A stretch of 33,737 nt of DNA, from positions 1-33,737 of the forward strand of contig NZ_JACXWX010000054.1 of the NCBI RefSeq assembly GCF_014764505.1. Direction: 5' to 3'. Every line of letters begins with the position of its first letter. The first letter of the stretch is position 1. The stretch is from Phormidium tenue FACHB-886. Its GTDB lineage: Bacteria; Cyanobacteriota; Cyanobacteriia; Elainellales; Elainellaceae. The notes beneath the pieces are model-generated. The model was given only the letters and a program-made list of their open reading frames with translations, did not search any database and was not told where the DNA came from. Of this stretch, positions 6,600 through 29,049 are shown piece after piece. Position numbers and translations under genes: made by a program.

Positions 6600-6968
6600 C
6601 TAATGTAGAATTTTTGCAATCTGATCTGCTAGCGTTAGTGGATCATAAGGTTTTGTAATAATGGCGGCGATCTCCAGCTGAGTATAGCGGCGATGATCGG
6701 CAGGCTGCGCTTTTGCGGTTAGCAAAATGACCGGGATGTGACGTGTGATTGGGTTTGCCTGCATTTGCTCAAAGGTTGCCAAGCCATCCACATCTGGCAT
6801 CATTACGTCTAGCAGCACTGCATCAGGTTGTTCAGCAACAGCCTTTGCCAACCCCTCATTGCTAGAGCCAGCGGTTAACACCTCCCACCCTTTCACAACC
6901 TCCAAACAAACTTGCGTTGCTTCTCGGATATCAGGTTCATCGTCAATAATCAAGATGCGCTTATTCAT
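6600..6968 (-). CDS. Single-domain response regulator (receiver)
   Basis: A 122-residue CheY-like receiver with no output domain. The acidic pocket is DDE (9-11), the phosphoacceptor is Asp54 in LLDVMMPDVDG, the conserved Thr is T84 in LLTAK, and the Lys is K106 in TKPYDP. All key residues are present, so it should be phosphorylatable. Its start codon overlaps the 3' end of the upstream histidine kinase by 8 bp on the same strand, which points to translational coupling and to the kinase as its partner. With no effector domain it probably acts by protein contact or as a phosphorelay intermediate, for example towards the Hpt domain of the regulator encoded first in this operon. Confidence 0.9.
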   Translation of the reverse strand: MNKRILIIDDEPDIREATQVCLEVVKGWEVLTAGSSNEGLAKAVAEQPDAVLLDVMMPDVDGLATFEQMQANPITRHIPVILLTAKAQPADHRRYTQLEIAAIITKPYDPLTLADQIAKILH

Positions 6969-9555
6969 AGGACACCAAAGGCAACGTGAGGTAAAAGCGG
7001 CTTCCCTGCCCCAGCTGGCTCTCTACCCAGATTTGCCCGTCGTGCTGCTGCACAATTCCTCGGCAGATAGTTAGCCCCAGTCCGGTACCTCCCTGGCTGC
7101 GAGAGCTAGAAGCATTGACCTGTTGAAAGCGATCGAAGATAGTTTCTAGTTTGTCCGCTGGGATACCGATGCCTTCGTCCTGGACGCAGAAGCGAATCTG
7201 AGGAGGGTGGGATGGAGAAGTAATTTGTTCAGCAGTGAGCTGAACACTAGAGTGGGGTGGAGAAAATTTGATCGCGTTGCTAAGCAGATTGGTGAAGGTC
7301 TGAATAATTCGATCAGGATCGACCCAAAGGGTGGCAGAGAAGGGAGTGATGCAAAGATTAACTTCAGCTTTTTCTGCCATTGCCCGCATTGCATCAACGG
7401 ATTGCAGCATCAGGTCAGCAGCGTTGCAAAGCTGCTTCTCCAGGGTGTCCTTGCCAAATTTGATTCGTTCTACATCTAGGACATCATTGATTAAACGAAC
7501 AAGCCGATTGGTGTTTGAGAAGGCAATTTCTAGCATCCGCTGGCTTTTCTCTAGATCGCTATTGAGCCAGCCGCTTGCCAGTAACCCTAATGTACTGCGG
7601 ATGGAGGTAAGCGGAGTTCTGAGTTCATGACTAACCATCGACACAAACTCATCCTTCAGCTGTTCCATCTGCTGACGCACTGTAATATCTTTAAACAGCA
7701 CAACCGCACCGACAATGTTGTCTTGCTCTTGGATCGGGCTGCTGATATATTCCACCGGAAAGCTCGATCCATCTCGCCGGTAGAATCGATCGTCGTTGCC
7801 AGCATAGATATTGCCCGTCTGTAGGGTTAACTGAATCGGGTTTTCTGCCAGCAAGTAGAGAGATTGATCGGCTCTAGTGTGCTGCAGCACCTCATGCATC
7901 CATTGTCCAACTAGCTCGCTCACCTCATAACCCAGCATCTTTGCTGCAGCCAGGTTGACGAATGTAATTTTGCCATAAGCATCCAAGCCATAAATACCCT
8001 CGCCTACAGCATTCAAAATCAGTTCGTTCTGTCGGCTTAATCGAGCCAGCGATGCCTCTGCCTGCTGCCGTTCGGTTAAGGCGCGTTCTCGCTCGGTGAT
8101 TTGCCAGCGTAGCTCCTGGTTTGCCTGCTGGAATTCGGCTGTGCGTTCCAGCACGCGTTGTTCTAATTTGGCGTTGAGGGCAGAAAGTTTTTGCTCTGCT
8201 TGTTTGCGGCGCTGGATATCTCGCTCCAGGTTTTTATTGAGGGCACAGACCTGCAGATAGAGCGATCGCTGATGAATGGCAACTACAATGTGATGGCTCA
8301 AGGCGTGGGCTAGCTCAATTTCAGCAGTTGTCCAAGCCTGTGCCTGCCCCTGCTTCAGCTCCCGCCATGTTTCAAACGATTGACGCGGACGATGCTGCCG
8401 TGAGTCCTTGCGGTCAATGCGTCCTGCCCACACTCTTTCTACGTCAATTTCCCGACGAAAGACGCTGAGATAGCCCAGGGTTTGCTGCTGATATTGCAGC
8501 CGCAGAATCAAAATTCCTCGAATCTCTGCCGTAAGCAAGACAGCCACTAAGTCAGAGGGCATGACGGCGGAGTAGAGATCGGTGATTGCCCAAAGATTTT
8601 CGCGGGTGGGTTCTTCTAAGTCAAGCCAGGTTTGCCAGTGGGGATGGTGTTCGAGTGGGAGAGGCGAGACTTGGGCGGTGGCTCGCGGGGAATCGGCAGA
8701 TCTGGGAGGATCGAGTTTCCAGGTTTCGGGGCAGGTGGGCTGCCTGCCGTGGGTGAAAAGCTGCAGAGGTTGGTGAGAGCCTTGTGCGGACAGATAGAGG
8801 CGCCCGCCGCTGCCCTGTAGGGCAACAACGACCTGTTCAAGCGTTTGCTGAAGCTGCATCTCGGGGATAGTGTGTAGCAGCGTAGCAACGCGGTTAATCA
8901 AGGCTTCTTGGGTTGCCCGGAAGCGGGCTTGCTGGAGCAAGTTGGATTGGGCAATGGCAATCGCAAGCTGATCGGCGATCGCCTGCACGACCTGCAGTTC
9001 GCCTTCGGTAATTTGGTGAGGCTTGCTGTGATGCGAGACGAGTAGCCCCCAGAGGCGATCGGATTCGACAATTGGCACTACAACAGAAGACTGCACGCCC
9101 ATAGCGCTCAGGTACTCTGCGTGGCAAGGATCAAGTGCACGAACTTGTCGATCGTCCTGCATGTCGCTCCAGCCATCGGGTAGCGGGCTCATCCCAATCT
9201 GGCGTGCTGTCACATCCACAATGGATCGCTGCCGCGCCTTCAGAAAAAACTCTCTCACCTTTTGGGGAACGTCTTCTGCTGGAAAACTGTGCCCCAGCAG
9301 CACTGGCAGACGGCGATTGTAAATTGATTCGGCGATCACTTCACCGGTTCCATCTGGATGAAACTGATAGATCTTGACGCGATCGGTTTGCAAAAACCCC
9401 CGCACTTCAGCGACTGTTGCCGTCAGAATTTCGGGTAGCTCTAAAGATTGGCGAATCCGATTGGTCATCCGATGCAGCAACAGCGCAAAGGAATCTGCCT
9501 GATCTGCGGAGGATGAGGCAGCCGAATGAGGTGAATCTGACAATGAACGTGACAT
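6961..9555 (-). CDS. Phytochrome-like (knotless GAF-PHY) PAS histidine kinase
   Basis: 864 residues with no membrane segment, so a soluble cytoplasmic sensor. Residues 25-205 are a phytochrome-type GAF with the PASDIP-like motif SFPAEDVP (90-97), the DPCH bilin-attachment motif with Cys144-His145, and LWGLLVSHH. Residues 215-430 resemble a PHY domain: WAGR at 376-379 and the tongue motif PRQSF at 390-394. There is no N-terminal PAS domain, as in Cph2-type knotless phytochromes. A coiled coil follows (440-505), then a PAS domain (506-628), HisKA with His643 in MVSHELRTPL, and HATPase_c with N box NLLSNAIKF (756-764), DEGIGI (793-798) and GGTGLGL (822-828). It lies 58 bp after the multi-module regulator gene and overlaps the receiver gene, so the three form one operon. 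Binding of a bilin is inferred from motifs; the wavelengths sensed cannot be predicted. Confidence 0.85.
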   Translation of the reverse strand: MSRSLSDSPHSAASSSADQADSFALLLHRMTNRIRQSLELPEILTATVAEVRGFLQTDRVKIYQFHPDGTGEVIAESIYNRRLPVLLGHSFPAEDVPQKVREFFLKARQRSIVDVTARQIGMSPLPDGWSDMQDDRQVRALDPCHAEYLSAMGVQSSVVVPIVESDRLWGLLVSHHSKPHQITEGELQVVQAIADQLAIAIAQSNLLQQARFRATQEALINRVATLLHTIPEMQLQQTLEQVVVALQGSGGRLYLSAQGSHQPLQLFTHGRQPTCPETWKLDPPRSADSPRATAQVSPLPLEHHPHWQTWLDLEEPTRENLWAITDLYSAVMPSDLVAVLLTAEIRGILILRLQYQQQTLGYLSVFRREIDVERVWAGRIDRKDSRQHRPRQSFETWRELKQGQAQAWTTAEIELAHALSHHIVVAIHQRSLYLQVCALNKNLERDIQRRKQAEQKLSALNAKLEQRVLERTAEFQQANQELRWQITERERALTERQQAEASLARLSRQNELILNAVGEGIYGLDAYGKITFVNLAAAKMLGYEVSELVGQWMHEVLQHTRADQSLYLLAENPIQLTLQTGNIYAGNDDRFYRRDGSSFPVEYISSPIQEQDNIVGAVVLFKDITVRQQMEQLKDEFVSMVSHELRTPLTSIRSTLGLLASGWLNSDLEKSQRMLEIAFSNTNRLVRLINDVLDVERIKFGKDTLEKQLCNAADLMLQSVDAMRAMAEKAEVNLCITPFSATLWVDPDRIIQTFTNLLSNAIKFSPPHSSVQLTAEQITSPSHPPQIRFCVQDEGIGIPADKLETIFDRFQQVNASSSRSQGGTGLGLTICRGIVQQHDGQIWVESQLGQGSRFYLTLPLVSYE

Positions 9556-9613
9556 TAGCGACTTTAAAGAATAAATGGTTGTGAAACATATGCTGGAGGC
9601 TATGAGAGAAGCG

Positions 9614-11614
9614 CTAGGAAAGAAGCACTTGGGAAAGCTGCGATCGCTGAAATTCTCCTAAAATGCGACGGATGATTTCTGATTCGCGGATAGGTTTGCC
9701 GATCAGCGCATTTGCCCCTGCATTAATTGCTTGATATAAAGTGTTGGCATCGGTGTGAGCCGTCAAAAACCAAATTGGCAGATGCTTCCAGCCCGGAACA
9801 CTCCGCACTGCTTGACACAGCTCAATGCCGTTGAGGTCTGGCATTTCTACATCCAGAATTAGTAAATCTGGTGCATGAGCTTGCAGCGTTTCCCAAAGCT
9901 GCGGCGATCGCTCTAGCGCAATCAGATGCAGTCCCCAAGGTTCTAAAATCGCCCGCATTGCCGCCAGCAGTTGCGGATCGTCATCTACGATCAAAATCTG
10001 CTTGGGAGCCTCCGGAGTCGGCAATTGCAGCTTCTCTACAAGGCTCAACACTTGCTCTGGCAACAGCTGCGGCAACACAGCATCAACGCCTGCCTGTGCA
10101 AGTTTAGCTCGTAGAGTTAAATCAGCTCGATCGGTGAACACCAAGACGAATACAGGTGGAACTTGATGAGTGATCTCTTTAAGCAAGGCCAAATCAGATT
10201 CAGCGAGATCAGTTAGTGAAAGATCGAGGATAAACCGCTGTGCCAAAGATGCAGCATGTGGCTGAAGGGAGGCTGGTTTATTTGGACGGTGCTGAATTCC
10301 TTCTGCTAGCGCACGATAGGCGAAAGATAAGTTTAGCATTGGAACGATCGGATTTTGTGTCGCTCGGATAATTTCAGTCACTTGCTCAGCTGCATCGTCT
10401 AGGATCAGCAGCAGAGAGGCGCGAGTCAAAACCAATTCAGGCAGATCAGCTGAGATGGGCGACAAAGGAGTATCCGTGGGGGGAACTTCCAAAAGTATTG
10501 CTTTCAGCGTGTTGGTTAGCTCCATCAAGAACTCTAATTCTTGCGGATCGGGCATTTGTTTGGCCCTAAAGAACTGCTCTAGCTGCAATGCTAGTTGGGA
10601 GCCTTGCGAGCGTTGAAATACTCCCAATGCCCCTGCCAGCTTGTGGGCAGCAGACTGCGCCTGCTGCCACAGTTCGTCCCACATGTTGTCTGCTTGCATC
10701 GCGGCGATCGTCTGCTCCAAAATTTGTAGACGATCGCGGTTCTGCGGTTCGTATTTTTGCCAAACGGCTTGAAGCGCTGTGTGGATCCGTTGTTTGTGCC
10801 AGCTTTGTTCCAGTTCTACTGGCATAGATTGCGGATAGCCGAAGGGATGAAACGGGGGGGCAGCAGATGAGTTAGCAATCGGGCGATCGCGCAACGGCTG
10901 GCTTGTGGGTCCGGCTGCATCAATCGTTGCTTTGTCGCTGGAATTCTGTTTCAGCCGGTAGCCAATGCCATAGACCGTTTCAATAAAGCCTGCAGGCGCA
11001 CCCGCCTGTTTTAGCTTCTGCCGCAGCCCTTTAATATGGGCAGTAATTGTATCTTCAGCGGGTGCTTCTTCAGCTCCCCAGAGGTGTTCTAGAATTCGGC
11101 TGCGCGTGAACACATAGCGGGGATTGCGAAGAAACAGCTCTAACAGCCGATACTCTTTGGGGGTGAGATGCAAAGGACGATCGGCATAGGTGACTTGACA
11201 AGCAGTGGGATCAAGCTGCAACTGCTCCCAGGTTAAGACAGGCATCATAGGAGAACTGCTTCGCCGCAGCAAGACTCGCATCCGGGCAAACAGTTCTGGC
11301 AGCTCAAAGGGCTTCACCATATAATCATCGGCACCTGCATCCAAGCCGCTAACTCGATCGCTGCTGGAATCGCGAGCGGTCAGCAGCAAGATTGGAGTTT
11401 GGTAGTGATGCTCTCGAATTTGCCGACACAGCGTGATGCCATCGAGCTTGGGCAATATTACATCGAGCAAAATTAAGTCATAGGTGAAGGTTTCAATCAG
11501 TCGCCAGCCGAGTTCCCCGTCGGTTGCCACATCTACGGCATAGTTTTCTTTAACCAGCACTGTTTCTAAAAATTTAGCGATGTACTCGTCATCTTCAATT
11601 AATAAAACCCGCAT
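9614..11614 (-). CDS. Multi-module response regulator: REC-wHTH-Hpt-REC*-REC
   Basis: 666 residues. Residues 1-115 are an OmpR/PhoB receiver (Asp51 in LLDVILP, Lys101). Residues 125-223 are a winged helix ending in the characteristic IETVYGIGYRLK. Residues 270-375 look like an Hpt domain with His324 in SAAHKLAGALGVF. Residues 395-530 resemble a degenerate receiver with no Asp-X-X-X-P motif (LILDLSLTDLAES region). Residues 538-655 are a further receiver with acidic VDDD, Asp588 in LILDVEMPDLNG and Lys640. The protein could therefore accept phosphate, shuttle it through an internal His and bind DNA. It is first in an operon with the GAF-PHY kinase and a lone receiver, the likely partners. A similar layout (PhoB-like regulator with extra Hpt and REC) is known in other cyanobacteria, but the pairing here is inferred from position. 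Confidence 0.88.
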   Translation of the reverse strand: MRVLLIEDDEYIAKFLETVLVKENYAVDVATDGELGWRLIETFTYDLILLDVILPKLDGITLCRQIREHHYQTPILLLTARDSSSDRVSGLDAGADDYMVKPFELPELFARMRVLLRRSSSPMMPVLTWEQLQLDPTACQVTYADRPLHLTPKEYRLLELFLRNPRYVFTRSRILEHLWGAEEAPAEDTITAHIKGLRQKLKQAGAPAGFIETVYGIGYRLKQNSSDKATIDAAGPTSQPLRDRPIANSSAAPPFHPFGYPQSMPVELEQSWHKQRIHTALQAVWQKYEPQNRDRLQILEQTIAAMQADNMWDELWQQAQSAAHKLAGALGVFQRSQGSQLALQLEQFFRAKQMPDPQELEFLMELTNTLKAILLEVPPTDTPLSPISADLPELVLTRASLLLILDDAAEQVTEIIRATQNPIVPMLNLSFAYRALAEGIQHRPNKPASLQPHAASLAQRFILDLSLTDLAESDLALLKEITHQVPPVFVLVFTDRADLTLRAKLAQAGVDAVLPQLLPEQVLSLVEKLQLPTPEAPKQILIVDDDPQLLAAMRAILEPWGLHLIALERSPQLWETLQAHAPDLLILDVEMPDLNGIELCQAVRSVPGWKHLPIWFLTAHTDANTLYQAINAGANALIGKPIRESEIIRRILGEFQRSQLSQVLLS

Positions 11615-15804: not shown

Positions 15805-15870
15805 CTAAAGGCGGGTGCATAGTTGGGAGATGTATCAGTCTATTCGCTAGAGACCTCTGTCAATTCAACA

Positions 15871-18552
15871 ATGTATACAACGATCGGATCTCAATCCCCA
15901 GAGCGCCCTATTAAAGTGGGAATTTTGCATTCTTTGGCAGGTGCCTGGGCAATTGGTGAAGTTGCCTTAAAAGATGCTGAACTGTTAGCGATCGCGGAGA
16001 TTAACCAAGCAGGCGGTGTTTTAGGTAGAGCGATCGAACCGATTGTAGAGGATGGCGCATCCGATCTGACCATTTTTAAGGCAAAAACCAGAAAACTGAT
16101 TTTAGAAGACCAAGTTGCCACAATCTTTGGCTGTTGGTTTTCCACGGTTCGTAAATCTGTCTTACCAATCTTAGAGCAGTTCAATGCGCTGCTTTGGTAT
16201 CCCGTTCAGTACGAAGGACTGGAATGTTCTAAAAACATTTTCTACACCGGAGTTTGTCCTAACCAGCAAATTGAGCCTGCTGTGGAGTGGTTGTTAAAGC
16301 ATCGGGGCAACAGGTTTTACCTGGTCGGCTCTGATATAGTTTTCTCACGGACTGCCCATAAAATTATTAAAGCTAAACTGAAGCGTCAAGGTGGCATTGT
16401 TCTGGGAGAAGACTACATTGCAGTTGGAGATCAGTCATTTAAAGCAACGATCGCCAGAATTAAGCAAACCCAGCCTGATGTCGTGTTTAGCACCGTTAAC
16501 ACCGACAGTAATTTGGGATTTTATTCCCAGTATAAAGAAGCGGGAATTCGGGCTGAAGATATTCCGATCTTGGCAGTCAGTGTGACTGAAGAAGAGATCC
16601 GTCAAATTGGCGGGGATGTAGCTGCGGGACACTACGCCGCTCACAACTATTTCCAAAGCTTAGACAATCCTGCTAATCGCACCTTTGTAAAGAACTTTCA
16701 AACGATGTATGGAGCCGATCGAGTTACCTGTGACTCTGTGGAAGCTGCATACACTCAAGTATATTTGTGGAAGCAGGCTGTTGAACATGCTCAGTCGTTT
16801 GAGGTCGATCGAGTGCGGGTTGCCGCCTATGGGCAAACGTTAGATACTCCTAGCGGAATCATTCAAGTTGAACAGAATCGACATCTTTGGAAGACCTGCC
16901 GCATTGGTAAAATCTTGCCGAACGGCCAGTTTGAGATTGTTAGCACAGAGGATAAGTTATTCAAGCCCCAGCCTTGGTTGGGTGTGGATGATGTTGAGTT
17001 CAATACGTCTGAGCTAGTGATGGATATGCTAGCTGAGGCAGCCCAAGCGATTCAGTATAGCTGCGAGCTAGAGCAAAAATCGCGAGAGCTGATGGAGGCA
17101 AATAATCGGCTTCAGGTATTGGCTCAACGGGTTGAGCTTCTAAAGCGAAATCTATCGAGCCAAATTCGTCGATCGCTTGATTTGAACACAATTCTAGGAA
17201 CGGCTGTTCGGGAAATTCAACAGGTGCTTCAGGTTGACCGATGCAAGTTTCTCTGGTATCAGCGAGAGCAGGATGCCATTGCGTTTCAAAGTCATGACTC
17301 TAACACTCCAGATTTGACGAATGCAGGCGATCATGACCTAATACAACACATTAAGCTGAACGGCAAAACGATCCTTACCCTTAACTTGCTGCAGATCGAT
17401 GATGTTCTCACAGATCCAAGACTAGATGCTGCTAGTCGTGAGTTGCTTAGAGACAGTCATTTGACAGCACTTCTGGCAGTCTCAATTCATACTCATTCAG
17501 GTCGCATCGGCGTGATCACCTGCGATCACAGGAGCAACGCTCGGTTCTGGAGCGATTACGAAGTTGAGCTGCTTCAGGATGTTGCCGATCAGCTCGCGAT
17601 CGCTGTTGACCAAGCAGAATTATATGCTCAGGCACAGACCACTGCGCTGAATGCGCAAACTCAGGCAGAACAGCTTCAGCAGGCATTGCACGACCTGCAA
17701 ACTACTCAGGCACAGCTTGTACAAACCGAAAAAATGTCAAGTTTGGGACAGTTAGTTGCAGGTCTTGCTCATGAAATCAATAATCCTGTTAATTTCATCT
17801 ACGGTAACCTTAACCCCACCTGCGACTATACTCAAGATCTGCTGAGATTGGTGCAACTTTACCAACAGCACTATCCTGATCCAGTACCAGAAATTCAGGC
17901 TGAAATAGAGGCGATCGACCTAGAATTCTTGGTTAAAGATTTTCCTAGGCTCTTGTCCTCAATGAAGGTAGGAGCAGATCGAATTCGTCAAATCATTCTG
18001 TCGTTGCGGAACTTCTCCCGTTTGGATGAGGCAGAAATGAAACTAGTAGATATCCATGAGGGAATTGATAGCACCCTATTAATTCTGCAGCATCGTTTGA
18101 AGGAGGAAGTAAAATATCCAGGAATCGAGATAATTAAAGAATACGGAGATCTACCGCTTGTAGAATGTTATCCTGGGCAAATCAATCAGGTATTTATGAA
18201 CATTCTGAGCAATGCGATTGATGCTTTAGAGGAATACAGTAGTGAGCTTGCTCAAAAAGAACAATGCAAGCATCCTGCCACTATCCGGATTTGTACAAAA
18301 ACGACAGATTCTGACTGGATCACTATCCACATCAGCGATAATGGCCCAGGCATTTCTGCTGATATTCAACAGCAACTGTTTGATCCGTTCTTTACCACTA
18401 AACCCGTAGGCAAGGGAACGGGTTTAGGCTTGGCGATCAGCCATCAAATTGTTGTAGATAAACACAACGGGCGGCTGTGTTGCCTGTCCAAACTTGGGCA
18501 AGGAACAGAATTTGTAATTAAAATTCCAGCTGAACAAAAAGCTTACAGCTGA
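15871..18552 (+). CDS. UrtA-like binding domain fused to GAF and histidine kinase
   Basis: 893 residues from the ATG at 15871; a TTG at 15823 would add 16. Residues 14-370 are a type I periplasmic-binding fold closely resembling the urea-transporter receptor UrtA and amide receptor AmiC: KVGILHSLAGAWAIGE, then LLWYPVQYEGLECSKNIFYT, PNQQIEPAVEWLL, and VFSTVNTDSNLGFYSQYKEA. There is no signal peptide or transmembrane helix, so this domain should be cytoplasmic, as AmiC is. A coiled coil (about 395-430) leads to a GAF domain (about 430-585), a second coiled coil, a HisKA-type helix with His634 in GLAHEINNP, and HATPase_c with NILSNAIDAL, DNGPGI (823-828) and GKGTGLGL (847-854). The protein probably senses urea, a short amide or an amino acid and signals to an unlinked regulator; no receiver is adjacent. 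The ligand is inferred only from domain similarity. Confidence 0.9.
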   Translation: MYTTIGSQSPERPIKVGILHSLAGAWAIGEVALKDAELLAIAEINQAGGVLGRAIEPIVEDGASDLTIFKAKTRKLILEDQVATIFGCWFSTVRKSVLPILEQFNALLWYPVQYEGLECSKNIFYTGVCPNQQIEPAVEWLLKHRGNRFYLVGSDIVFSRTAHKIIKAKLKRQGGIVLGEDYIAVGDQSFKATIARIKQTQPDVVFSTVNTDSNLGFYSQYKEAGIRAEDIPILAVSVTEEEIRQIGGDVAAGHYAAHNYFQSLDNPANRTFVKNFQTMYGADRVTCDSVEAAYTQVYLWKQAVEHAQSFEVDRVRVAAYGQTLDTPSGIIQVEQNRHLWKTCRIGKILPNGQFEIVSTEDKLFKPQPWLGVDDVEFNTSELVMDMLAEAAQAIQYSCELEQKSRELMEANNRLQVLAQRVELLKRNLSSQIRRSLDLNTILGTAVREIQQVLQVDRCKFLWYQREQDAIAFQSHDSNTPDLTNAGDHDLIQHIKLNGKTILTLNLLQIDDVLTDPRLDAASRELLRDSHLTALLAVSIHTHSGRIGVITCDHRSNARFWSDYEVELLQDVADQLAIAVDQAELYAQAQTTALNAQTQAEQLQQALHDLQTTQAQLVQTEKMSSLGQLVAGLAHEINNPVNFIYGNLNPTCDYTQDLLRLVQLYQQHYPDPVPEIQAEIEAIDLEFLVKDFPRLLSSMKVGADRIRQIILSLRNFSRLDEAEMKLVDIHEGIDSTLLILQHRLKEEVKYPGIEIIKEYGDLPLVECYPGQINQVFMNILSNAIDALEEYSSELAQKEQCKHPATIRICTKTTDSDWITIHISDNGPGISADIQQQLFDPFFTTKPVGKGTGLGLAISHQIVVDKHNGRLCCLSKLGQGTEFVIKIPAEQKAYS

Positions 18553-21163: not shown

Positions 21164-21938
21164 TCTTGTTTTGACTCCATTAGAAGCTGATGAAATACTT
21201 AAATGCAGTAAACGCAGCACAAAGTTGGGGACTGATAAGCCGTCAAACCCCACTTGCGCCACCTGAAACTCAGTCAGAAGCAGCACAAACCACAGGATGT
21301 TGCCATCCTGTAAAGGCATGCAATTTTGGTGGATACAAACCTGATTCGCAGAAAAACTTTAGCTTTCGATGTTCAAGCGCTACATCTAAAACAAATCACT
21401 CCAGGAGCCTTACTCTAGAAACTCCTGATTGAATTGGGTAGAAATAGAGTTGAGCTAAAGCTTGAAAGAAGGCAAACGAACCTGCAGAGAATTGCACCTT
21501 TTTCTCTGCAATCTATGTCTCAAGTACGAAACTCTACTACTTCTCGCGTGAGTTGCAGTGAGGCGCAATTGGCTTAGATGTTTTCTTACATACTCTTCAC
21601 AAATTTTACATGCAATTGCAATTTGCATGAAGTAAATCTGAATTTTAGGCTCTTCGAGTCAGTAGGATTACTGACTACATTGTAAAATTTTCATTCAATT
21701 ACTCTAATCGACCTATAAATCAACCGTAACTGTAGCTAGAGTTGGCAATAGCCTACCGCCAATTTATTGCCAATAGCCTATTGCTCTTAAGAAGGCAGTT
21801 GAGCGGCTGCGTCTTTACTAATGAAATATTGTTCGTGAGGTTTGAGAAGGCAGTCTTAGCTGCTTTCAAACTCCTCCTTAAGACTGTAGGCGGGGTTATC
21901 CCTTGTGGCCTATGGTGATGCGAGCGATCGAAGTAGCA
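21164..21938. other. Non-coding stretch upstream of the XRE gene
   Basis: About 775 bp without a supportable gene. Repeated and palindromic pieces occur. GCAATAGCCTA and CCAATAGCCTA lie about 20 bp apart near 21745-21785. CAGTCTTA (21851-21858) pairs with TAAGACTG (21879-21886), about 50 bp upstream of the regulator gene; this could be a leader hairpin or operator. Confidence 0.4.
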
Positions 21939-22187
21939 ATGTCTCTGATAACAGTTCTGCCCATCTCAGACCTAGTCCGTCATCTGCGGCAGCATCTCAA
22001 CCTGTCTCAGGAGAAATTTGCGGCAAAATTAGGCGTTTTCTTCAAAACGGTGAATTGTTGGGAGAGGGGGTATGGCTTATCCTTATCCATGGCACTGAAA
22101 CTGACTGAAGAGTTATTGAAATCGCTGGATGACTCTGGGAAGAACTTGCTAAGGCAGTACTATTCAGAGGGAAAATTAGATGTCTGA
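21939..22187 (+). CDS. XRE-family helix-turn-helix regulator
   Basis: 82 residues from the ATG at 21939; in-frame ATGs at 21912 and 21918 are alternatives. The helix-turn-helix is LVRHLRQHLNLSQEKFAAKL then GVFFKTVNCWERGYG (about 11-45), followed by a helical tail ALKLTEELLKSLDDSGKNLL. It resembles the small cyanobacterial XRE proteins that usually end in such a tail. The usual Asn/Arg-Trp-Glu pattern is present as NCWERG, with Cys in place of the common Arg. The stop codon overlaps the start of the hybrid kinase (ATGTCTGA at 22180-22187), so the pair is translationally coupled. It may autoregulate the two-gene operon. Confidence 0.8.
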   Translation: MSLITVLPISDLVRHLRQHLNLSQEKFAAKLGVFFKTVNCWERGYGLSLSMALKLTEELLKSLDDSGKNLLRQYYSEGKLDV

Positions 22188-25100
22188 AGCACTGCCCCCT
22201 GCGCTGCCCTATGTAAGTTTAGACGACATTTTGATTACGCAAGCCCTAGCTGAGCGATCGCCTCGAACCCCCGACTTGCAGTCTGAAACTCAAGCGCTTC
22301 ATTTGCTAGCGCGGCAATTGGCGGAGCAATCTCAGACGATGCTCAAAACGCTGGTGACGGTAGCGAAAGATCTCTGTCAGGCAGGAGCCGCCGGAGTCAG
22401 CTTACTGGAAGTAAGTCCTAATGGAGAGGAACTCTTCCGTTGGGCTGCTTTGGCTGGAACATTAGCAAACTATGAAGGAAGGACGACGTCAAAGAGCTTT
22501 AGTCCCTGCGGCGTCTGTTTAGATCGTCAAGCGCCTCAACTGTATCTTTATCCTGATCGATATTTTACCTACCTTCAGCAAGCGAAACCGCCGATCGTTG
22601 AGGGTTTGGTGATTCCGTTAATGGGGGGAACTCAACTATTGGGCGCAGTCTGGGTGGTGTCGCATGATGAGGCACGGCGGTTTGATGCCGAAGATGTGCG
22701 GATCTTAACCAGCCTTGCCGACTTTACTGCTGCTGCCCTACAGAGTCTTCATCTGCGTCAAACGGCTGAAACAGCCTTGCAGCGTGAGCAAACTGCCCGT
22801 CAAGAAGCTGAGGCAAACCGTAAAGCGTTGGATGAATCAGCGCAACGAGCGATCGAGATTCTGGAAAGTATTACTGATGCCTTTGTGTGTGTTGACCACG
22901 ACTGGCGAATCACCTATGTCAATCAGGAGGCGGCTCGGTTAACCAAGCTGCAACCCGAAGACCTGATGGGGAAGACTTATCAGGAGATGCAGCCCCGGAC
23001 GATCGCTACGGTGATGGAACAAGCCTATCATCGAATAACGGCACAACTAGAGGCGACCCATTTCGAGGTGTTGGATGAATCCTCAAGGACGTGGCTAGAG
23101 ATTCACGCTTATCCCTGCAAGGTGGGTTTCAGTATTTATTTTCGAGATATTACTGGGCGCAAGCAAGATAGAACTAGACGCAAGCAAGCAGAAGCTGCCT
23201 TACATGAGAGTGAGTCTCGCTTTCGTCTAATTGTCGAGAGCGTGAAAGATTATGCCATCTTTACGCTCGACCTCGATGGTCACATCACCAGTTGGAACCC
23301 CGGAGCCGAACGGCTGTTAGGGTATACAGAGGCAGAGATTGTTGGTCAACTCAGTCACATCATCTTTACACCTGAAGACCGAGAGGCTCGACGAGCTGAG
23401 CAAGAACTTCAGACTGCACTGACTCAGGGACGAGCAAAGGATGAGCGTTGGCACCTCCGCAAAGACGGAAGCCGTTTTTTTGCCAGCGGCTTGATGATGC
23501 AACTGCGTGATGAAGCAGGCAATCTTCAGGGATTGGTCAAAATTCTGCGGGATATGACTGAAGCACATCAGGCAACAGAACGGGAGCAGTTTTTGTCAGA
23601 AGCGAGTGCTGTATTAGCCGGGACACTCGATTACAAAACTACCCTGTTTAACATTGCGCGGATGGCAGTACCGTTTTTGGCTGACTTCTGCTTCTTCGAT
23701 ATCCTCAACACCCCTCACCGGATCGAACGAGTGGCATGGCATCACGGTGATCCGACAAAGCGGAATTGGTTTGAGCGGTTACAGCGATATACACCTCCTC
23801 AAGTCCGTGAGAACCACCCCGTTGCAAGCGTTCTGATGACGGGTAATGCTAACCTTGTTTCTCACGTGACCGAGGAGTGGATGCAAGCATCATCGCTTGA
23901 TGCTGATTATTTGCAATTTATTCAGGCGTCTCAGGTGCGATCGCTCATCACCGTTCCCCTGATTGCCCATGGTCGGACGCTTGGAGCATTAACGGTTTGC
24001 TTAACCACAGACTCAAACCGCCACTACACCCAAACTGATTTGATGCTAGCAGAAGAATTAGGGCGACGGGCAGCGTTGGCACTCGATAACGCTCAGCTCT
24101 ATCAGCAGGCGCAGGAAGCCAACCGGATGAAGGATGAGTTTATGGCAGTCCTTTCGCATGAGTTGCGATCGCCACTCAACCCCATTCTGGGCTGGATTCA
24201 ACTGGCTCGTAAAGGCAATTTAACTGAAGCCCAAACTGCGAAAGCCTGGACAACGATTGAGCGCAATGCCAAATTGCAAGCCCAACTGGTTGAAGATCTG
24301 CTGGATGTCTCTTGCATTTTACGGGGAAAGCTAAGCCTAAATTCAGGTAGGGTTAGCCTGGAGGCAACGATCCAAGCGGCAATTGAAACCGTGCAGTTGG
24401 CAGCCCAAGCCAAATCAATTGAAATAGAAACGAAGGTTGATCCTGAAATCCCATCGGTTTTGGGAGATGCGACCCGCTTACAGCAAGTAGTTTGGAATCT
24501 TCTTTCCAATGCGGTTAAGTTCACACCCGAAGGAGGGCGAGTTGAAATAGATTTGTCATGGGTTACGGGTCATACTGCTTTGCATAAGCAAGCTATGTCA
24601 TTGGTGAACACCGAAGGGCAAGGGACTAATGGCAAAGCGCTCACGACAAAGTACGCTCAAATTAGGATAAGTGACACAGGTACCGGCATTCATCCCAACT
24701 TTTTGCCCTACGTGTTTGATTACTTTCGGCAAGCCGATGGCGCAACCACCCGCCGATTTGGAGGGCTGGGTTTGGGATTAGCAATTGTGCGTCAGCTCGT
24801 TGAAGCGCATGGGGGACATGTGGAGGCAGAAAGCCCCGGTGAAGGACAGGGAGCAACGTTTACGGTAAGATTACCGCTGATCTCTGACTCAGCCCTCAAG
24901 GAGCAAGATAGCAGCCCTTTAGAAGACGCTTCTAATTTAGAGGGTATTCAAGTTTTAGCGGTAGATAATGAGCCGGACTCGTTAGAGTTTATTACTTTTG
25001 TGCTGGAGCAAGTTGGAGCCAATGTGGTGACCGCTACTTCCGCAAACGAGGCATTGCAACTATTGACTCAATTGCAGCCTGATCTGCTGCTAAGTGATAT

Positions 25101-25350
25101 TGGCATGCCGGATCAGGATGGCTATATGCTGATGCAGCAGGTGCGACGCTTCGAGGCTGCGCAACGCAAATCGCTTCCACCCAAACAGGGCGGGCAAATT
25201 CCGGCGATCGCGCTAACGGCTTATGCAGGAGACATCAATTATCAGCAGGCGATCGCAGCAGGGTTTCAACGGCACCTTGCCAAACCTGTTGAGCCAGAGA
25301 CATTAATCAGAACCATTGCTGATGTAATCAGGCAGAACCCGCGTCAATGA
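22180..25350 (+). CDS. Hybrid histidine kinase GAF-PAS-PAS-GAF-HisKA-HATPase-REC
   Basis: 1056 residues, no transmembrane segment. The N-terminal GAF (about 50-192) contains SFSPCGVCLDR and a conserved tail LVIPLMGGTQLLGAVWVV. Two PAS domains follow (about 222-328 and 342-462, the latter with SWNPGAERLLGYTEAEIVG). A second GAF (about 468-640) contains SLITVPLIAHGRTLGALTV. HisKA has His660 in VLSHELRSPLNPILG. HATPase_c has NLLSNAVKFTPEGG (773-786), DTGTGI (832-837) and GGLGLGL (861-867). The C-terminal receiver has VDNEPDS, Asp973 in LLLSDIGMPDQDGY and Lys1035 in AKPVEP, so it can accept phosphate. It is cotranscribed with the XRE gene. Its 3' end overlaps by 7 bp the convergent minus-strand receiver gene that ends at 25344. 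Its receiver resembles the Glu-type receiver encoded at 26559-26987 (shared IPAIALT, GFxRHLxKP). The ligands are unknown. Confidence 0.93.
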   Translation: MSEALPPALPYVSLDDILITQALAERSPRTPDLQSETQALHLLARQLAEQSQTMLKTLVTVAKDLCQAGAAGVSLLEVSPNGEELFRWAALAGTLANYEGRTTSKSFSPCGVCLDRQAPQLYLYPDRYFTYLQQAKPPIVEGLVIPLMGGTQLLGAVWVVSHDEARRFDAEDVRILTSLADFTAAALQSLHLRQTAETALQREQTARQEAEANRKALDESAQRAIEILESITDAFVCVDHDWRITYVNQEAARLTKLQPEDLMGKTYQEMQPRTIATVMEQAYHRITAQLEATHFEVLDESSRTWLEIHAYPCKVGFSIYFRDITGRKQDRTRRKQAEAALHESESRFRLIVESVKDYAIFTLDLDGHITSWNPGAERLLGYTEAEIVGQLSHIIFTPEDREARRAEQELQTALTQGRAKDERWHLRKDGSRFFASGLMMQLRDEAGNLQGLVKILRDMTEAHQATEREQFLSEASAVLAGTLDYKTTLFNIARMAVPFLADFCFFDILNTPHRIERVAWHHGDPTKRNWFERLQRYTPPQVRENHPVASVLMTGNANLVSHVTEEWMQASSLDADYLQFIQASQVRSLITVPLIAHGRTLGALTVCLTTDSNRHYTQTDLMLAEELGRRAALALDNAQLYQQAQEANRMKDEFMAVLSHELRSPLNPILGWIQLARKGNLTEAQTAKAWTTIERNAKLQAQLVEDLLDVSCILRGKLSLNSGRVSLEATIQAAIETVQLAAQAKSIEIETKVDPEIPSVLGDATRLQQVVWNLLSNAVKFTPEGGRVEIDLSWVTGHTALHKQAMSLVNTEGQGTNGKALTTKYAQIRISDTGTGIHPNFLPYVFDYFRQADGATTRRFGGLGLGLAIVRQLVEAHGGHVEAESPGEGQGATFTVRLPLISDSALKEQDSSPLEDASNLEGIQVLAVDNEPDSLEFITFVLEQVGANVVTATSANEALQLLTQLQPDLLLSDIGMPDQDGYMLMQQVRRFEAAQRKSLPPKQGGQIPAIALTAYAGDINYQQAIAAGFQRHLAKPVEPETLIRTIADVIRQNPRQ

Positions 25351-25793: not shown

Positions 25794-26489
25794 TCACTCT
25801 TGTAGTAATCGCTCGTACTGAGCTTTAATCGTTTTGAAACATTCACAGCCGGTGGCTTCTAATCCAGTTTGGTTGAGAATTTGTACATTCCCACGACGGT
25901 ATTGAATCAATTTTCTTTCTTGCAGCTTTAGAGCCGTCTGCGTCACCCCTGCCCGACGAACGCCCAGCATTGTGGCGAGGAACTCTTGCGTCAAAGGCAG
26001 CTCGTTGGTGTTGAGTTGCCATTGTGCTTCAAGCAGCCAACGGGGCAGCCGTTGCTCTAGAGAGTGAAGGGCATTACAAGCAGCCGTTTGAGAAACCTGT
26101 GCCAGAAACGCTTGGGTATAGCGCAGCAGCACATCGCGCAGTTCGCTATTCCGCTCGAATTCTTGCCGCACGACTTGAGCATCAATCTTCATGGCACTAC
26201 CTGCAATCTGGACAGCGTAATCTGTCTGTGCGGCTTCGCGGCTACCCAGAAAGGCGCCAAGTCCCAGTACATCCCAAGGACCGACCATACCTACCTCTGC
26301 TACTGCACCATCTTCCATCGTGACCGTGACTGAGAAGAGGCAGTCGATCGGAAAATAGAGATGGGATATGGGATCACCAGGTCTACGGATGATGTCACCT
26401 CTTTCTAAGCTAACTTGATTAAGATGAGGTGCAAGCAGATCGAACGCCTGAGCAGAAAGAGCGGAGAGTATTTGATTTCCAACGATCAT
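25794..26489 (-). CDS. Crp/Fnr-type transcriptional regulator (cassette copy 1)
   Basis: 231 residues from the ATG at 26489, chosen because TTGAGG lies 7-12 bases upstream; an open frame extends to a TTG at 26552. The N-terminal cyclic-nucleotide-binding-like beta roll is about residues 10-125 (VSLERGDIIRRPGDPISHLY, DCLFSVTVTMEDGAVAEVG, VLGLGAFLGSREAAQTDYAV). It lacks the Arg-Ser phosphate cassette of cAMP-binding Crp, so the ligand is probably not cAMP. A dimerisation helix follows, then the winged helix-turn-helix LTQEFLATMLGVRRAGVTQT and QERKLIQYRRGNVQIL. The C-terminus has a CECF motif shared with the paralogue at 27618. It lies between a Glu-type and an Asn-type receiver and likely shares their transcript. 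Confidence 0.85.
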   Translation of the reverse strand: MIVGNQILSALSAQAFDLLAPHLNQVSLERGDIIRRPGDPISHLYFPIDCLFSVTVTMEDGAVAEVGMVGPWDVLGLGAFLGSREAAQTDYAVQIAGSAMKIDAQVVRQEFERNSELRDVLLRYTQAFLAQVSQTAACNALHSLEQRLPRWLLEAQWQLNTNELPLTQEFLATMLGVRRAGVTQTALKLQERKLIQYRRGNVQILNQTGLEATGCECFKTIKAQYERLLQE

Positions 26490-26558
26490 AAAAGCCTCAA
26501 GAGGGTGGCGCGAAAGGCTCTTTGTAGAATACATCTCAACATGAACGGTCAAAATTTT

Positions 26559-26987
26559 CTATTGACAAGCGTTTGCCGATATCGTTTGAGTCTGTCCGGT
26601 AAGGCAAGCTACGGTTGCAATTAGCTTTTCAATGTTCAACGGTTTCGGCAAGTGCCTACAAAACCCAGCCGCGAGGGCTTGAATTCGATCCCGATCTTCA
26701 CTACATACCGTTAATGCGATCGCTGGAATCTGGACGCTGTAAACCATTTCAAAGGTTTTAACCTGTTGGATGAGCGAGTAGCCATTCTCATAGGGCAGGA
26801 TGATCTCGCTAATTAAGAGGTCGGGTGGAGATTGTTGGATCTTTTCGATCGCTTCGCTGACACAACTGGCTGTGATCGTCTCAACCCCATGTTGGGCAAA
26901 GATGACCGCCAGTAGTTCACAAGAATCAAGCTGACTGTCTACGACAAGTACTCGTAGCCCGTTTCGCAGCGAAGTCAAATCACACAT
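26559..26987 (-). CDS. Receiver-like protein, phosphoacceptor Asp replaced by Glu (cassette copy 1)
   Basis: 142 residues, stand-alone receiver fold: VLVVDSQLDSCELLAVIFAQ, ETITASCVSEAIEKI, LLISEIILPYENGYSLIQQV, IPAIALT, FCRHLPKP. The site homologous to the phosphoacceptor is Glu61 (SEIILP where SDxxMP is expected). Thr93 and Lys115 are kept. Glu often mimics the phosphorylated state, so the protein may be permanently active. It resembles the receiver of the nearby hybrid kinase (SDIGMPDQDGY, IPAIALT, FQRHLAKP) and may derive from it. It lies 69 bp upstream of the Crp-like start on the same strand. A Gln/Thr-rich tail follows the domain. Confidence 0.82.
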   Translation of the reverse strand: MCDLTSLRNGLRVLVVDSQLDSCELLAVIFAQHGVETITASCVSEAIEKIQQSPPDLLISEIILPYENGYSLIQQVKTFEMVYSVQIPAIALTVCSEDRDRIQALAAGFCRHLPKPLNIEKLIATVACLTGQTQTISANACQ

Positions 26988-27181
26988 ATCCAGAAACAGT
27001 CAATCACACAAAAAGGTACTAAAGGACACAAAACGAGCGAAAATGCTCCTTTTAAGAGGAAAAATATAAATTAATGAGTTTTAACGATGGACTTAATCCA
27101 CGCTAGTCCTAATAGGAATAAAACTTCAGTACGCTTTCGTGCTTTATAAGAAAGTTCAATCCAACGAGGGGGAAAAACGCA

Positions 27182-27589
27182 TCAAACCCACTGGATCGGG
27201 CAAAGTTTGTACAGGAGATTTTTTAGCTGCTCCCCATCTTCTAGATAGGTGACGTACTCGCTTTCACCCAGTTGGATATCCTGCCCTTCTAACTCGACTC
27301 CATATTTCTCAGCCAAAATGACAATCGGAACCCAGCTAGCAACAGCTGCTTGTTGACGGATGTGCCGTCCGATGTCAATAAATTCCTCGATCGACTGCCC
27401 AAATTGATTCAGTAGAATCAAGTCAAAGAGGGCACCTCCATCTCTAGTTCGTTGGAGTGCATCTGCCGCATCCAGGGTGACAATTACAGCATATCCCCAA
27501 CGACGGAGGTTGTCCTTAAGAATGGGACGCACAGTGTCATCCGGCTCGACAAGCAAAATGGTTGTCAATCTCGGTGTTTCCTGGCTCAT
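27182..27589 (-). CDS. Receiver-like protein, phosphoacceptor Asp replaced by Asn (cassette copy 2)
   Basis: 135 residues, paralogue of the protein at 25344. It has the receiver fold TILLVEPDDTVRPILKDNLR, VIVTLDAADALQRT, FDLILLNQFGQS, WVPIVILAEKYG, then ESEYVTYLEDGEQLKNLLYK. Asn61 stands at the phosphorylation site, so it should not accept phosphate. The first acidic cluster is EPDD rather than DD. It is encoded 28 bp after the second Crp-like gene on the same strand, matching the order in copy 1. It probably acts as an adaptor for another protein; the partner is unknown. Confidence 0.8.
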   Translation of the reverse strand: MSQETPRLTTILLVEPDDTVRPILKDNLRRWGYAVIVTLDAADALQRTRDGGALFDLILLNQFGQSIEEFIDIGRHIRQQAAVASWVPIVILAEKYGVELEGQDIQLGESEYVTYLEDGEQLKNLLYKLCPIQWV

Positions 27590-27617
27590 CTCGCTCGCTT
27601 TGCCTTAGAACGGAACA

Positions 27618-28331
27618 CTACGGTAGGACTACGTGAGAAGCTCCCAGCAGACGATCGTATTCATCCCTGAGAACATGAAAACACTCACAGGCAGACGCTT
27701 CTAACCCAATGCGGTCGAGGATCTGGATATGCCCCCGCTGGTAACGAATCAGCTCCTTGTCCTGAAGCTGTTGGGCAGTTTGAGTCACCCCAGCACGGCG
27801 CACACCCAACATTTCTGACATAAGCTCCTGCGTCAGGTCTAGCTCGTCTCCTTCAACCCGGTCATGAACCTCCAATAACCAACGAGCCAATCGCTGATCT
27901 AGCTTATGGAGTCCGTTGCAGGCAGTCGTCTGAGACAGCTGAGCGATAAAGGCTTGTGTATAGCGCAACATGACGTTCCGCAGGTCTTTATTGCGATCGA
28001 ATTCATCTCGCAAAATCTGAGCGTCGATCTTCATAGCGCTACCGGCAACCTGCACAATGTAGGTAGTTTGCGTGGTTTCCCGACCGCCCATAAACGCATT
28101 AATGCCAATCACCTCACGCCTGCCAACCAATCCTGTTTCTGCCGTTGTGCCATCCTGCATGGCGATTGTGATAGAAAGAACACAATCTAGAGGAAAGTAG
28201 AAATCTCGGATCACTTCACCGGGTTCATGCAGACGATCGCCCCGCCGCAGCACTACTCGTTTGAGGTTAGGAGCAAGCTTTTCGGCTAGCGCCCGAGGCA
28301 TGGCATTAAGCAGGCGATTTTGCGTTGTCAT
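27618..28331 (-). CDS. Crp/Fnr-type transcriptional regulator (cassette copy 2)
   Basis: 237 residues. The effector-binding beta roll (VVLRRGDRLHEPGEVIRDFY, DCVLSITIAMQDGTTAETG, VIGINAFMGGRETTQTTYIV) is followed by the dimer helix region AGSAMKIDAQILRDEF. The winged helix-turn-helix is LTQELMSEMLGVRRAGVTQT with ELIRYQRGHIQIL. It is clearly paralogous to the protein at 25794 (shared AGSAMKIDAQ, RYTQAF, SQT-ACN, GVRRAGVTQTA, CECF). No cAMP phosphate cassette is seen. It precedes an Asn-type receiver by 28 bp. The upstream Glu-type receiver gene is 196 bp away, with a hairpin at its end, so that gene may be uncoupled from this one. Confidence 0.87.
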   Translation of the reverse strand: MTTQNRLLNAMPRALAEKLAPNLKRVVLRRGDRLHEPGEVIRDFYFPLDCVLSITIAMQDGTTAETGLVGRREVIGINAFMGGRETTQTTYIVQVAGSAMKIDAQILRDEFDRNKDLRNVMLRYTQAFIAQLSQTTACNGLHKLDQRLARWLLEVHDRVEGDELDLTQELMSEMLGVRRAGVTQTAQQLQDKELIRYQRGHIQILDRIGLEASACECFHVLRDEYDRLLGASHVVLP

Positions 28332-28505
28332 GGCGCCCCCACACTTTGTCTTAGCAGCTAGTTCTGCCTTAGCAGCTTACTTCAATAGTGGTAGAAAACA
28401 CCTCATGCACAAGTTAGAAATCTCGTTGTGGGCATAGCCTGATGCGGCGCGGTTAGCATCAGTTCAACAGGTGGGAAAGGCAATCGTTCACTTTAACCAT
28501 TCTAG

Positions 28506-28536
28506 CTAGTGTAGCCTGAAACTCACACTACACTAG
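28506..28536. repeat. 9-bp inverted repeat overlapping the stop of the Glu-type receiver gene
   Basis: CTAGTGTAG (28506-28514) pairs with CTACACTAG (28528-28536), 13-nt loop. The right arm contains the minus-strand stop codon of the gene at 28528. On the plus strand it is followed by ACTTTTTT. It could limit read-through between the receiver and Crp-like genes or stabilise an mRNA end. Confidence 0.45.
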
Positions 28537-29049
28537 ACTTTTTTCAGCTATGTGCTCTACTACTTCGCCCTCTACTTTGCACTCTGTGGCAGCTTTACTA
28601 CCTACCGCTTGCAGGCTAAGTGGCTGTGACATTTCTGGCAGAAGCATCAACTTCCAAACCTCATTACGAAATTGATCAAGGTCAATCGGCTTTATTTGAT
28701 ATGCCTCAACCTTGATCGCCAAATGCTTAGCAAGGCCCACAACAGAAAATGTTGAAGTCACAAAAATTGGAATTGCCTTATTCCTCATTTGTGCCACAGC
28801 TCTCATTTCTTGAATCAATGGATAAACACTTTCACCAAGAAACCTGGCTTCACAAATCAGAATATCAGGCACAAACCAATTTAGAAAATTTAAAGCTTCC
28901 TTGATTGATCCAGCCACCGTTACCACTACACCACAACGTTCAAGTAAAGCAGCATACAAAGCTGCGCTATCGCGATCGTTATCAACGATAAGAATCTGCA
29001 CATTGTTGAGTATGGACAAGTTAAAGAGAGAGCCATCTGTCGAAAGCAT
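28528..29049 (-). CDS. Receiver-like protein, phosphoacceptor Asp replaced by Glu (cassette copy 2)
   Basis: 173 residues, stand-alone receiver fold: VQILIVDNDRDSAALYAALL, VVVTVAGSIKEALNFL, PDILICEARFLGES, IPIFVTST, AYQIKPIDLDQF. The position homologous to the phosphoacceptor is Glu67 (ICEARF); Thr98 and Lys120 are kept, and one acidic pocket residue is Asn24. A 40-residue tail of low similarity follows. It is more diverged than the copy-1 Glu-type receiver but has the same position relative to a Crp-like and an Asn-type receiver gene. An AAGGAC sequence precedes the ATG. It probably acts as a phosphorylation-independent regulator. Confidence 0.75.
   Translation of the reverse strand: MLSTDGSLFNLSILNNVQILIVDNDRDSAALYAALLERCGVVVTVAGSIKEALNFLNWFVPDILICEARFLGESVYPLIQEMRAVAQMRNKAIPIFVTSTFSVVGLAKHLAIKVEAYQIKPIDLDQFRNEVWKLMLLPEMSQPLSLQAVGSKAATECKVEGEVVEHIAEKSLV

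Follow-up and report, generated by a model that had tools for sequence, protein, structure and literature searches.

What could a urea-receptor domain sense when it is joined directly to a histidine kinase and has no visible means of leaving the cell? The question is raised by one gene in the 33,737-nucleotide stretch of Phormidium tenue FACHB-886 DNA analysed here (the window). A preliminary description, made from the letters alone, had read its product as a cytoplasmic "UrtA/AmiC-like" sensor of urea, a short amide or an amino acid, coupled to a phosphorelay. We consider it fairly probable that the protein works as a soluble sensor histidine kinase in the cytoplasm, with a former UrtA, stripped of its export signal, as the input domain that reads a small nitrogen compound.

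Gene structure and domain organization

The open reading frame extends from an ATG at 15871 to a stop at 18552 and encodes 893 amino acid residues, representing a complete gene. Its sole longer start is a TTG at 15823, located just 3' of an in-frame TAG, which adds 16 residues without a hydrophobic run. Pfam positions were originally counted from this TTG and are given below in ATG numbering, i.e., minus 16.

15871..18552, + strand: whole gene (893 aa), predicted cytoplasmic UrtA-like domain, linker, GAF and histidine kinase
15910..16983, + strand: UrtA-type (Peripla_BP_5) two-lobed binding domain, residues 14-371 (Pfam, E 2.8e-145)
16336..16338, + strand: codon of Ile156, counterpart of Tyr190 in P. 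marinus UrtA (alignments)
16984..17178, + strand: linker, residues 372-436, PWLG motif followed by a long helix (fusion-family-specific)
17179..17607, + strand: GAF domain, residues 437-579 (Pfam, E 1.5e-18)
17608..18177, + strand: helical connector with putative dimerisation/phosphoacceptor region (weak HisKA match, motif, helix 562-667 of a low-confidence model)
17770-17772, + strand: codon of His634 in HEINNP (motif position)
18178..18534, + strand: HATPase_c catalytic domain (Pfam, E 5.2e-24)

In the kinase part, HATPase_c scored 85.3 bits against a Pfam cut-off of 26.4, and HisKA gave a weak match over 23 positions (E 4.8e-5, 23.8 bits, below the cut-off of 26.9). The motifs HEINNP (His634), NQVFMN (772), DNGPGIS (823), FDPFFTTKP (837) and GKGTGLGL (847) are all present, and those within HATPase_c we take to be the N, G1, F and G2 boxes. 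An AlphaFold2 model of residues 1-435, based on 47 aligned sequences, reached a mean pLDDT of 91.1 and contains a continuous helix (380-434) after the binding domain, the first part of which has a pLDDT of 60-66. The full-length model, built from eight sequences, was too poor to use (pLDDT 59.7, with a low-confidence helix at 562-667), and for this reason the passage of a signal through the protein is described below in conditional terms.

The binding domain is of the UrtA type

The input domain is of the UrtA type. Compared with solved structures, it scored 427 bits to the urea receptor 8tg1 and 348-350 bits to 7s6f, 7s6e and 8hic, which are cyanobacterial UrtA structures, versus 194 bits to AmiC of Pseudomonas aeruginosa (1pea, 1qnl, 1qo0), a cytoplasmic protein. 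The fold ranking of the 1-435 model agrees, with 8tg1, 8hic, 7s6e and 7s6f at the top (VIA Z 50.4-52.6) and AmiC next (Z 46.4-47.0). Descent of the domain from AmiC is rejected on these two grounds, and only the first half of the "UrtA/AmiC-like" label can be retained. AmiC also carries Tyr, Pro and Val at the positions of Trp120, Gln144 and Asn246 in the alignment. The NCBIfam UrtA model TIGR03407 gave 490.8 bits, just below its cut-off of 492.75, which four of the eight fusion relatives scanned did pass and which leaves these liable to be named as transport proteins.

Between the window protein and its counterpart in genome G017, identity is 75% in the binding domain, 74% in the linker, 73-77% in the helical regions, 60% in HATPase and 48% in GAF. 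Between G017 and G026 the binding domain shows a dN of 0.037 and a dS of 0.948; this low dN with high dS, together with the good identity, indicates that the domain is under purifying selection. Given this selection and the family matches reported below, the window gene is real and a chance fusion is ruled out. The GAF domain is the fastest-changing part of the protein (48% against 75% in the binding domain) and none was reported at E 1e-6 by Pfam in two relatives (loci L043 and L038), which makes it improbable as the site of a conserved signal; the suggestion that GAF integrates such a second signal is thus not favoured.

Cellular location

With neither start (ATG 15871 or TTG 15823) was a signal peptide found in the window protein, nor a membrane segment by hydropathy; the best 19-residue value was 1.22 in both cases, compared with 2.82 for the UrtB membrane control. 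The UrtA encoded in the same genome scores just 1.31 although its N-terminus is leader-like, so that hydropathy alone is a weak test here and the better argument comes from the short stretch ahead of the first strand, which counts about 14 residues from the ATG or about 30 from the TTG, against 57 ahead of the equivalent strand in that UrtA. A binding domain that begins at about residue 14 starts too early for a signal peptide. Hydropathy likewise gave no membrane segment in any of 25 fusion-family members, 24 of which are covered by the short-N-terminus argument, the N-terminus of the G044 protein being missing at a contig start.

Export by way of a signal or membrane segment of the alternative start is ruled out, there being no hydrophobic run with either start. 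That the protein might nonetheless be an envelope sensor with a missed signal or membrane segment is suggested by UrtA itself being an exported receptor, and is extremely improbable in view of the 14 or 30 residues before the first strand, the lack of membrane segments throughout the family and the need of the kinase for ATP, which places it in the cytoplasm. From the missing leader we infer a soluble, cytoplasmic protein. The domain order and the lack of signal peptide and membrane segment noted in the preliminary description were thus borne out by Pfam and hydropathy with both starts, and the export signal that a different start might have provided was sought and not found.

A family of predicted cytoplasmic fusions with four outputs

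A search of 60 relatives returned two full-length orthologues, 68% and 67% identical over residues 12-889, and further large proteins matching the window protein through the binding domain only. A relative in Vasconcelosia minhoensis is 53% identical in its best segment, while a plasmid copy in Kovacikia minuta shows 70.5% identity in two pieces. Altogether, 25 cyanobacterial proteins combining a UrtA-like domain with a common linker were collected, the Kovacikia copy being a 26th. The linker follows the binding domain with PWLG and then a helix of leQKs-eL pattern, and is lacking in transport UrtA. The fusions end in four types of output:

histidine kinases with or without GAF, including those of Vasconcelosia minhoensis and Microseira wollei (Pfam)
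SpoIIE-type PP2C phosphatases, including that of Nodosilinea nodulosa PCC 7104 (Pfam)
class III nucleotide cyclases, including that of an uncultured Coleofasciculus (Pfam)
diguanylate cyclases (GGDEF proteins), including that of Planktothrix rubescens PCC7821 (Pfam)

Outputs were named by Pfam in 18 of the 25 fusions (the window protein and 17 others) and by alignment or likeness in G017, G026, G045b, the G208 and G310 cyclases and the G310 GGDEF protein, with G222a left unnamed.

A linker profile run on 386 cyanobacterial genomes, with up to 15 candidates scored in each, gave 27 matches, comprising 13 fusions that match along almost all of the profile, one partial match (G407) and 13 UrtA-length frames that match only to position 27, i.e., the end of the binding domain itself. 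With the larger profile A2, fusions were found in 10 of the 386 genomes sampled and in 6 of 143 genera, a patchy distribution, counted from up to 15 candidates scored per genome and pertaining to fusions with the PWLG-helix linker, the only ones that linker-based scans detect. In the order of the window organism, 6 of 36 genomes carry a fusion, one of them clipped by a contig end. A wide scan gave no linker in non-cyanobacterial loci among the best 80 of 587 loci, and among 72,556 plasmid records only the Kovacikia copy covers 80% of the query. This copy (L208:9968-12650, plasmid pA of K. minuta CCNUW1, 1.2 Mb) is the closest named orthologue and is read in two frames, so that the gene is broken or the record contains an error of sequencing.

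A tree of 64 binding domains, calculated with the linker left out and without two G310 proteins that lie near others of the same genus, placed the 23 fusion domains in one clade (100/100). Its grouping with cyanobacterial UrtA was supported at 90/92, below the starred level, and the program warned of long branches meeting. Once 13 rows with long branches or divergent receptors had been taken out, one clade was formed by the fusions (SH-aLRT 100) and another by 27 cyanobacterial UrtA (99), the two placed side by side (90). Since the fusion clade stands beside cyanobacterial UrtA and not inside it, the fusions are not derived within the present-day cyanobacterial UrtA. The simplest reading of these trees would be one early capture of a UrtA domain, with later swaps of the output. 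The four output classes need four changes on the smaller tree, one above the minimum, so output swapping appears to be indicated, if not well resolved. The orthologues, linker matches and one-clade tree rule out a chance fusion or a singleton, the latter having been the earlier view of a protein that belongs to a family with four output types.

Genomic context

Pfam scanning of the 20 other open reading frames of the window revealed no receiver or urea-transport gene adjacent to the fusion gene, and no ANTAR partner among the window proteins scanned. The receivers present in the window lie further off:

9614-11614, - strand: gene with receiver, DNA-binding and Hpt domains (Pfam)
22180-25350, + strand: hybrid kinase with GAF, PAS and receiver domains (Pfam)
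26559-26987 and 28528-29049, - strand: small receiver genes (Pfam), with a weak, below-cut-off one at 27182-27589

The nearest two being 3.6 and 4.3 kb away, and all receivers thus at least 3.6 kb distant, the kinase is an orphan by position. No partner or target gene emerged from the analysis. In this respect the preliminary description, with its intracellular input coupled to a histidine kinase and neither receiver nor urt genes adjacent, was accurate. Inspection by eye of neighbouring frames of at least 200 aa showed no conserved neighbour common to the window, while a gene of about 350 aa lies near the fusion in both G017 and G026. As for regulation, an exact NtcA-type site (GTA-N8-TAC) lies within 500 bases upstream of one of seven genes (G066), which is not the window gene; as the same pattern occurs seven times in the window, this match is uninformative.

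Elsewhere in the genome of the window organism both urease and a canonical UrtA are present, the urtA gene lying on contig C1 with permease genes and ATPase genes, both named by a look at the sequence. A survey restricted to fusion genomes, which provides context and not proof, detected a separate receptor of the same Pfam family in 15 of 16 (E 1e-40; the exception is G330) and urease in 14 of 16, the two misses being G029 (69% complete) and G330, which combines a wrecked pocket with the lack of both separate receptor (E 1e-40) and urease. In G017, G026 and G058 the separate receptor is of a different-pocket kind only, with no canonical UrtA at E 1e-40. As G017 and G026 lack canonical UrtA, though they have urease, the fusions are not generally linked to the uptake of urea.

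Other transport genes were seen near some fusions. An SsuA/TauA-like (nitrate/taurine-type) ABC transporter, below cut-offs, adjoins the fusion gene in G010 (L043:3118-6087) and Kovacikia (L208:5983-9237), and another SsuA-like one, also below cut-offs, lies about 6 kb from the G029 fusion; none is beside the window gene. Contig C227 of the window organism (L045:5219-17185) encodes a second UrtA-like receptor with a different pocket, in a cluster that looks by eye like amide uptake (permeases, ATPases, a peptidase-like gene, an oxidoreductase and an amidase).

Further regulatory genes occur in the window itself. A phytochrome-like kinase (GAF, PHY, PAS, HisKA, HATPase) adjoins the receiver/DNA-binding/Hpt gene (6961-11614, - strand), the hybrid kinase shares a few bases at its start with the gene of a small HTH_3 (helix-turn-helix) protein (E 6.2e-8; 21903-25350, + strand), and two Crp-like regulators (25794-26552 and 27618-28331) alternate with the small receiver proteins (25794-29049, - strand). 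A phosphoketolase gene (XFP) is found at 3886-6384 (+ strand).

The urea pocket and its possible ligands

According to the available sections of PMC10392092, nine residues surround urea in P. marinus UrtA, which binds it with a Kd of about 140 nM; the Tyr190 hydroxyl forms a hydrogen bond with the urea oxygen, and the Y190A substitution significantly lowers or abolishes binding. These positions were transferred by counting on structure alignments and by sequence alignment. The window protein keeps eight of the nine (W120, S122, Y141, Q144, E146, F192, N246 and S274), and the ninth, Tyr190, is replaced by Ile156, as also in G017, G026 and the Kovacikia minuta plasmid copy, its three orthologues. 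Among 41 transport-type rows, 36 have the full nine-residue pocket, and Tyr occupies position 190 in all 36 canonical UrtA rows; many of these rows came from a search pattern containing Y141, Q144 and E146, so conservation there is partly by selection, Y190 lying outside the pattern. The remaining five keep the Tyr in an otherwise different pocket, fall outside on the tree and are taken for putative amide receptors.

Of the 25 fusions, 12 retain the whole pocket (11 among the 23 used for the tree), and these are distributed over all four output classes. Others range from one change, as in the window clade or in G066 (Q144E), to loss of nearly all pocket residues. Because these 12 members, covering all four output types, retain every urea-contacting residue, urea was most likely the ancestral ligand of the family, and it is a likely ligand of the pocket-intact relatives. 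In the window protein urea is doubtful, since the Tyr that would hold its oxygen is Ile and Y190A impairs UrtA binding. Structure prediction and pocket comparison gave a confident UrtA fold with Z scores above those of AmiC, but with one of nine residues changed; sensing of urea, as first suggested, draws support from the eight retained residues and is called into question by the ninth. A comparison limited to 35 rows of canonical UrtA and to the 11 fusions with an intact pocket revealed 30 positions that are at least 90% conserved in the former and differ in each of the three members of the window clade. All 11 fusions keep three of the 30 (Tyr156, Pro159 and Gly211); Pro159 stands three residues past 156, and Gly211 adjoins the Asn246 equivalent, a nearness in sequence only.

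For the window subclade, the alignments suggest that the protein either reads urea less tightly, as would fit concentrations within the cell, or responds to a related compound. The second option, a switch to substituted urea, a short amide or an amino acid that would still regulate the kinase, is a real possibility, if short of an even chance. It agrees with Ile being shared by the window protein and three orthologues, with clade-specific changes nearby in a domain under strong purifying selection, and with G017 and G026, which lack canonical UrtA and have only a receptor with a different pocket; the 30 positions, however, spread across the whole domain, so that much of the change is general divergence, and the other urea-bonding residues are retained. 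The same retention (Ser122, Gln144 and Asn246, the other hydrogen-bonding residues, in a pocket kept at 8 of 9 positions), together with urease and canonical UrtA in the genome of the window organism, speaks for the first option, in which urea would still be sensed at micromolar or weaker affinity and an internal pool read beside urease. We regard this option as tentative, as the Y190A effect in the consulted part of PMC10392092 weighs against it, as do the changes of Pro159 and Gly211 in the window protein, G017 and G026, within three residues of a pocket residue.

Binding of a small molecule may have been lost altogether in some members. In G045b, G222a, G393, G330 and G058 most pocket residues are gone and the fusion is kept, and G330 has neither another family receptor (E 1e-40) nor urease; such wrecked pockets leave room for a structural role, or for another ligand, in part of the modules. 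For the window protein a ligand-free platform for dimerisation or for docking of a protein partner is unlikely, its clade having a largely kept pocket in a domain that is among the best conserved parts. Both conditions occur side by side in G045 (L038:1-5803), where two UrtA-like fusions are in tandem, the first with the pocket and the second without nearly all of its residues.

Proposed mechanism and relation to known systems

For the window protein we retain the cytoplasmic sensor kinase as the preferred reading. An intracellular nitrogen compound, small and polar, would close the two lobes, the C-terminal lobe would move and the linker helix twist, and the strain could pass by way of GAF and the helix behind it to the region around His634 in a presumably dimeric kinase, changing its autophosphorylation; a putative unlinked response regulator would carry the signal onward. 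For the family as a whole, it is nearly an even matter whether a single capture, on the cyanobacterial side of the UrtA tree, brought a urea receptor into the cytoplasm, and its cassette of binding domain and transducer helix now drives four outputs as intracellular urea sensors, with the window's branch among those re-tuned to a new ligand.

Flytrap (binding-protein) domains are the input of kinases such as BvgS and EvgS. A review reports PBP clan domains as prevalent in c-di-GMP enzymes and describes them as periplasmic (PMC8846402, in part), and the accessible portion of PMC8547431 names Peripla_BP_5 a single time among the ligand domains of chemoreceptors. The window protein resembles such PBP-clan signalling fusions in its flytrap input and differs from them in being, by prediction, all cytoplasmic and in having a UrtA-type domain. 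With UrtA (8hic, 7s6e, 7s6f; 8tg1) it has the whole binding domain in common (47-55% identity, Z 50-53, eight of nine urea contacts), and it differs in the lack of export signal and of adjacent urt genes, in the change of Tyr190 to Ile and in the fusion to GAF and kinase. The closest parallels in logic would be AmiC and NasS, and by analogy the best reading is that the window protein works like them. With AmiC, it shares a leaderless form and the fold of a regulator (Z 46-47); AmiC, by contrast, acts through a separate protein, AmiR, as whose ligand-binding partner it figures in the consulted part of PMC3795266. The same source portrays NasS as related to NrtA, the nitrate receptor, but leaderless, and as a predicted cytoplasmic nitrate sensor, likewise a relative of a transport receptor without signal sequence; it differs in being NrtA-related and in releasing NasT, instead of being fused to a kinase (PMC3795266, in part).

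Cytoplasmic sensors derived from transport receptors and flytrap domains on kinases and cyclases are therefore already known. A cytoplasmic UrtA-derived sensor with a dedicated linker common to four output types was not found in our literature search, which covered few subscription journals and returned neither a report of such a fusion family nor a title announcing a direct bacterial sensor of intracellular urea. To our knowledge, direct sensing of intracellular urea has been shown for no bacterial protein. Should the members with an intact pocket bind urea, phosphorelays, cyclic nucleotides and c-di-GMP would all be connected to the internal pool of this nitrogen source in cyanobacteria. The cassette further provides a natural one-input, four-output set for studying how enzymes read flytrap closure, and a possible urea biosensor.

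Outside the cyanobacteria, a kinase-like membrane protein and an apparent response regulator, both recognized by eye, are encoded just upstream of urtA in Megamonas (L118:4678-9578) and Pectinatus (L127:5062-9914), and may be a membrane-bound counterpart for urea control.
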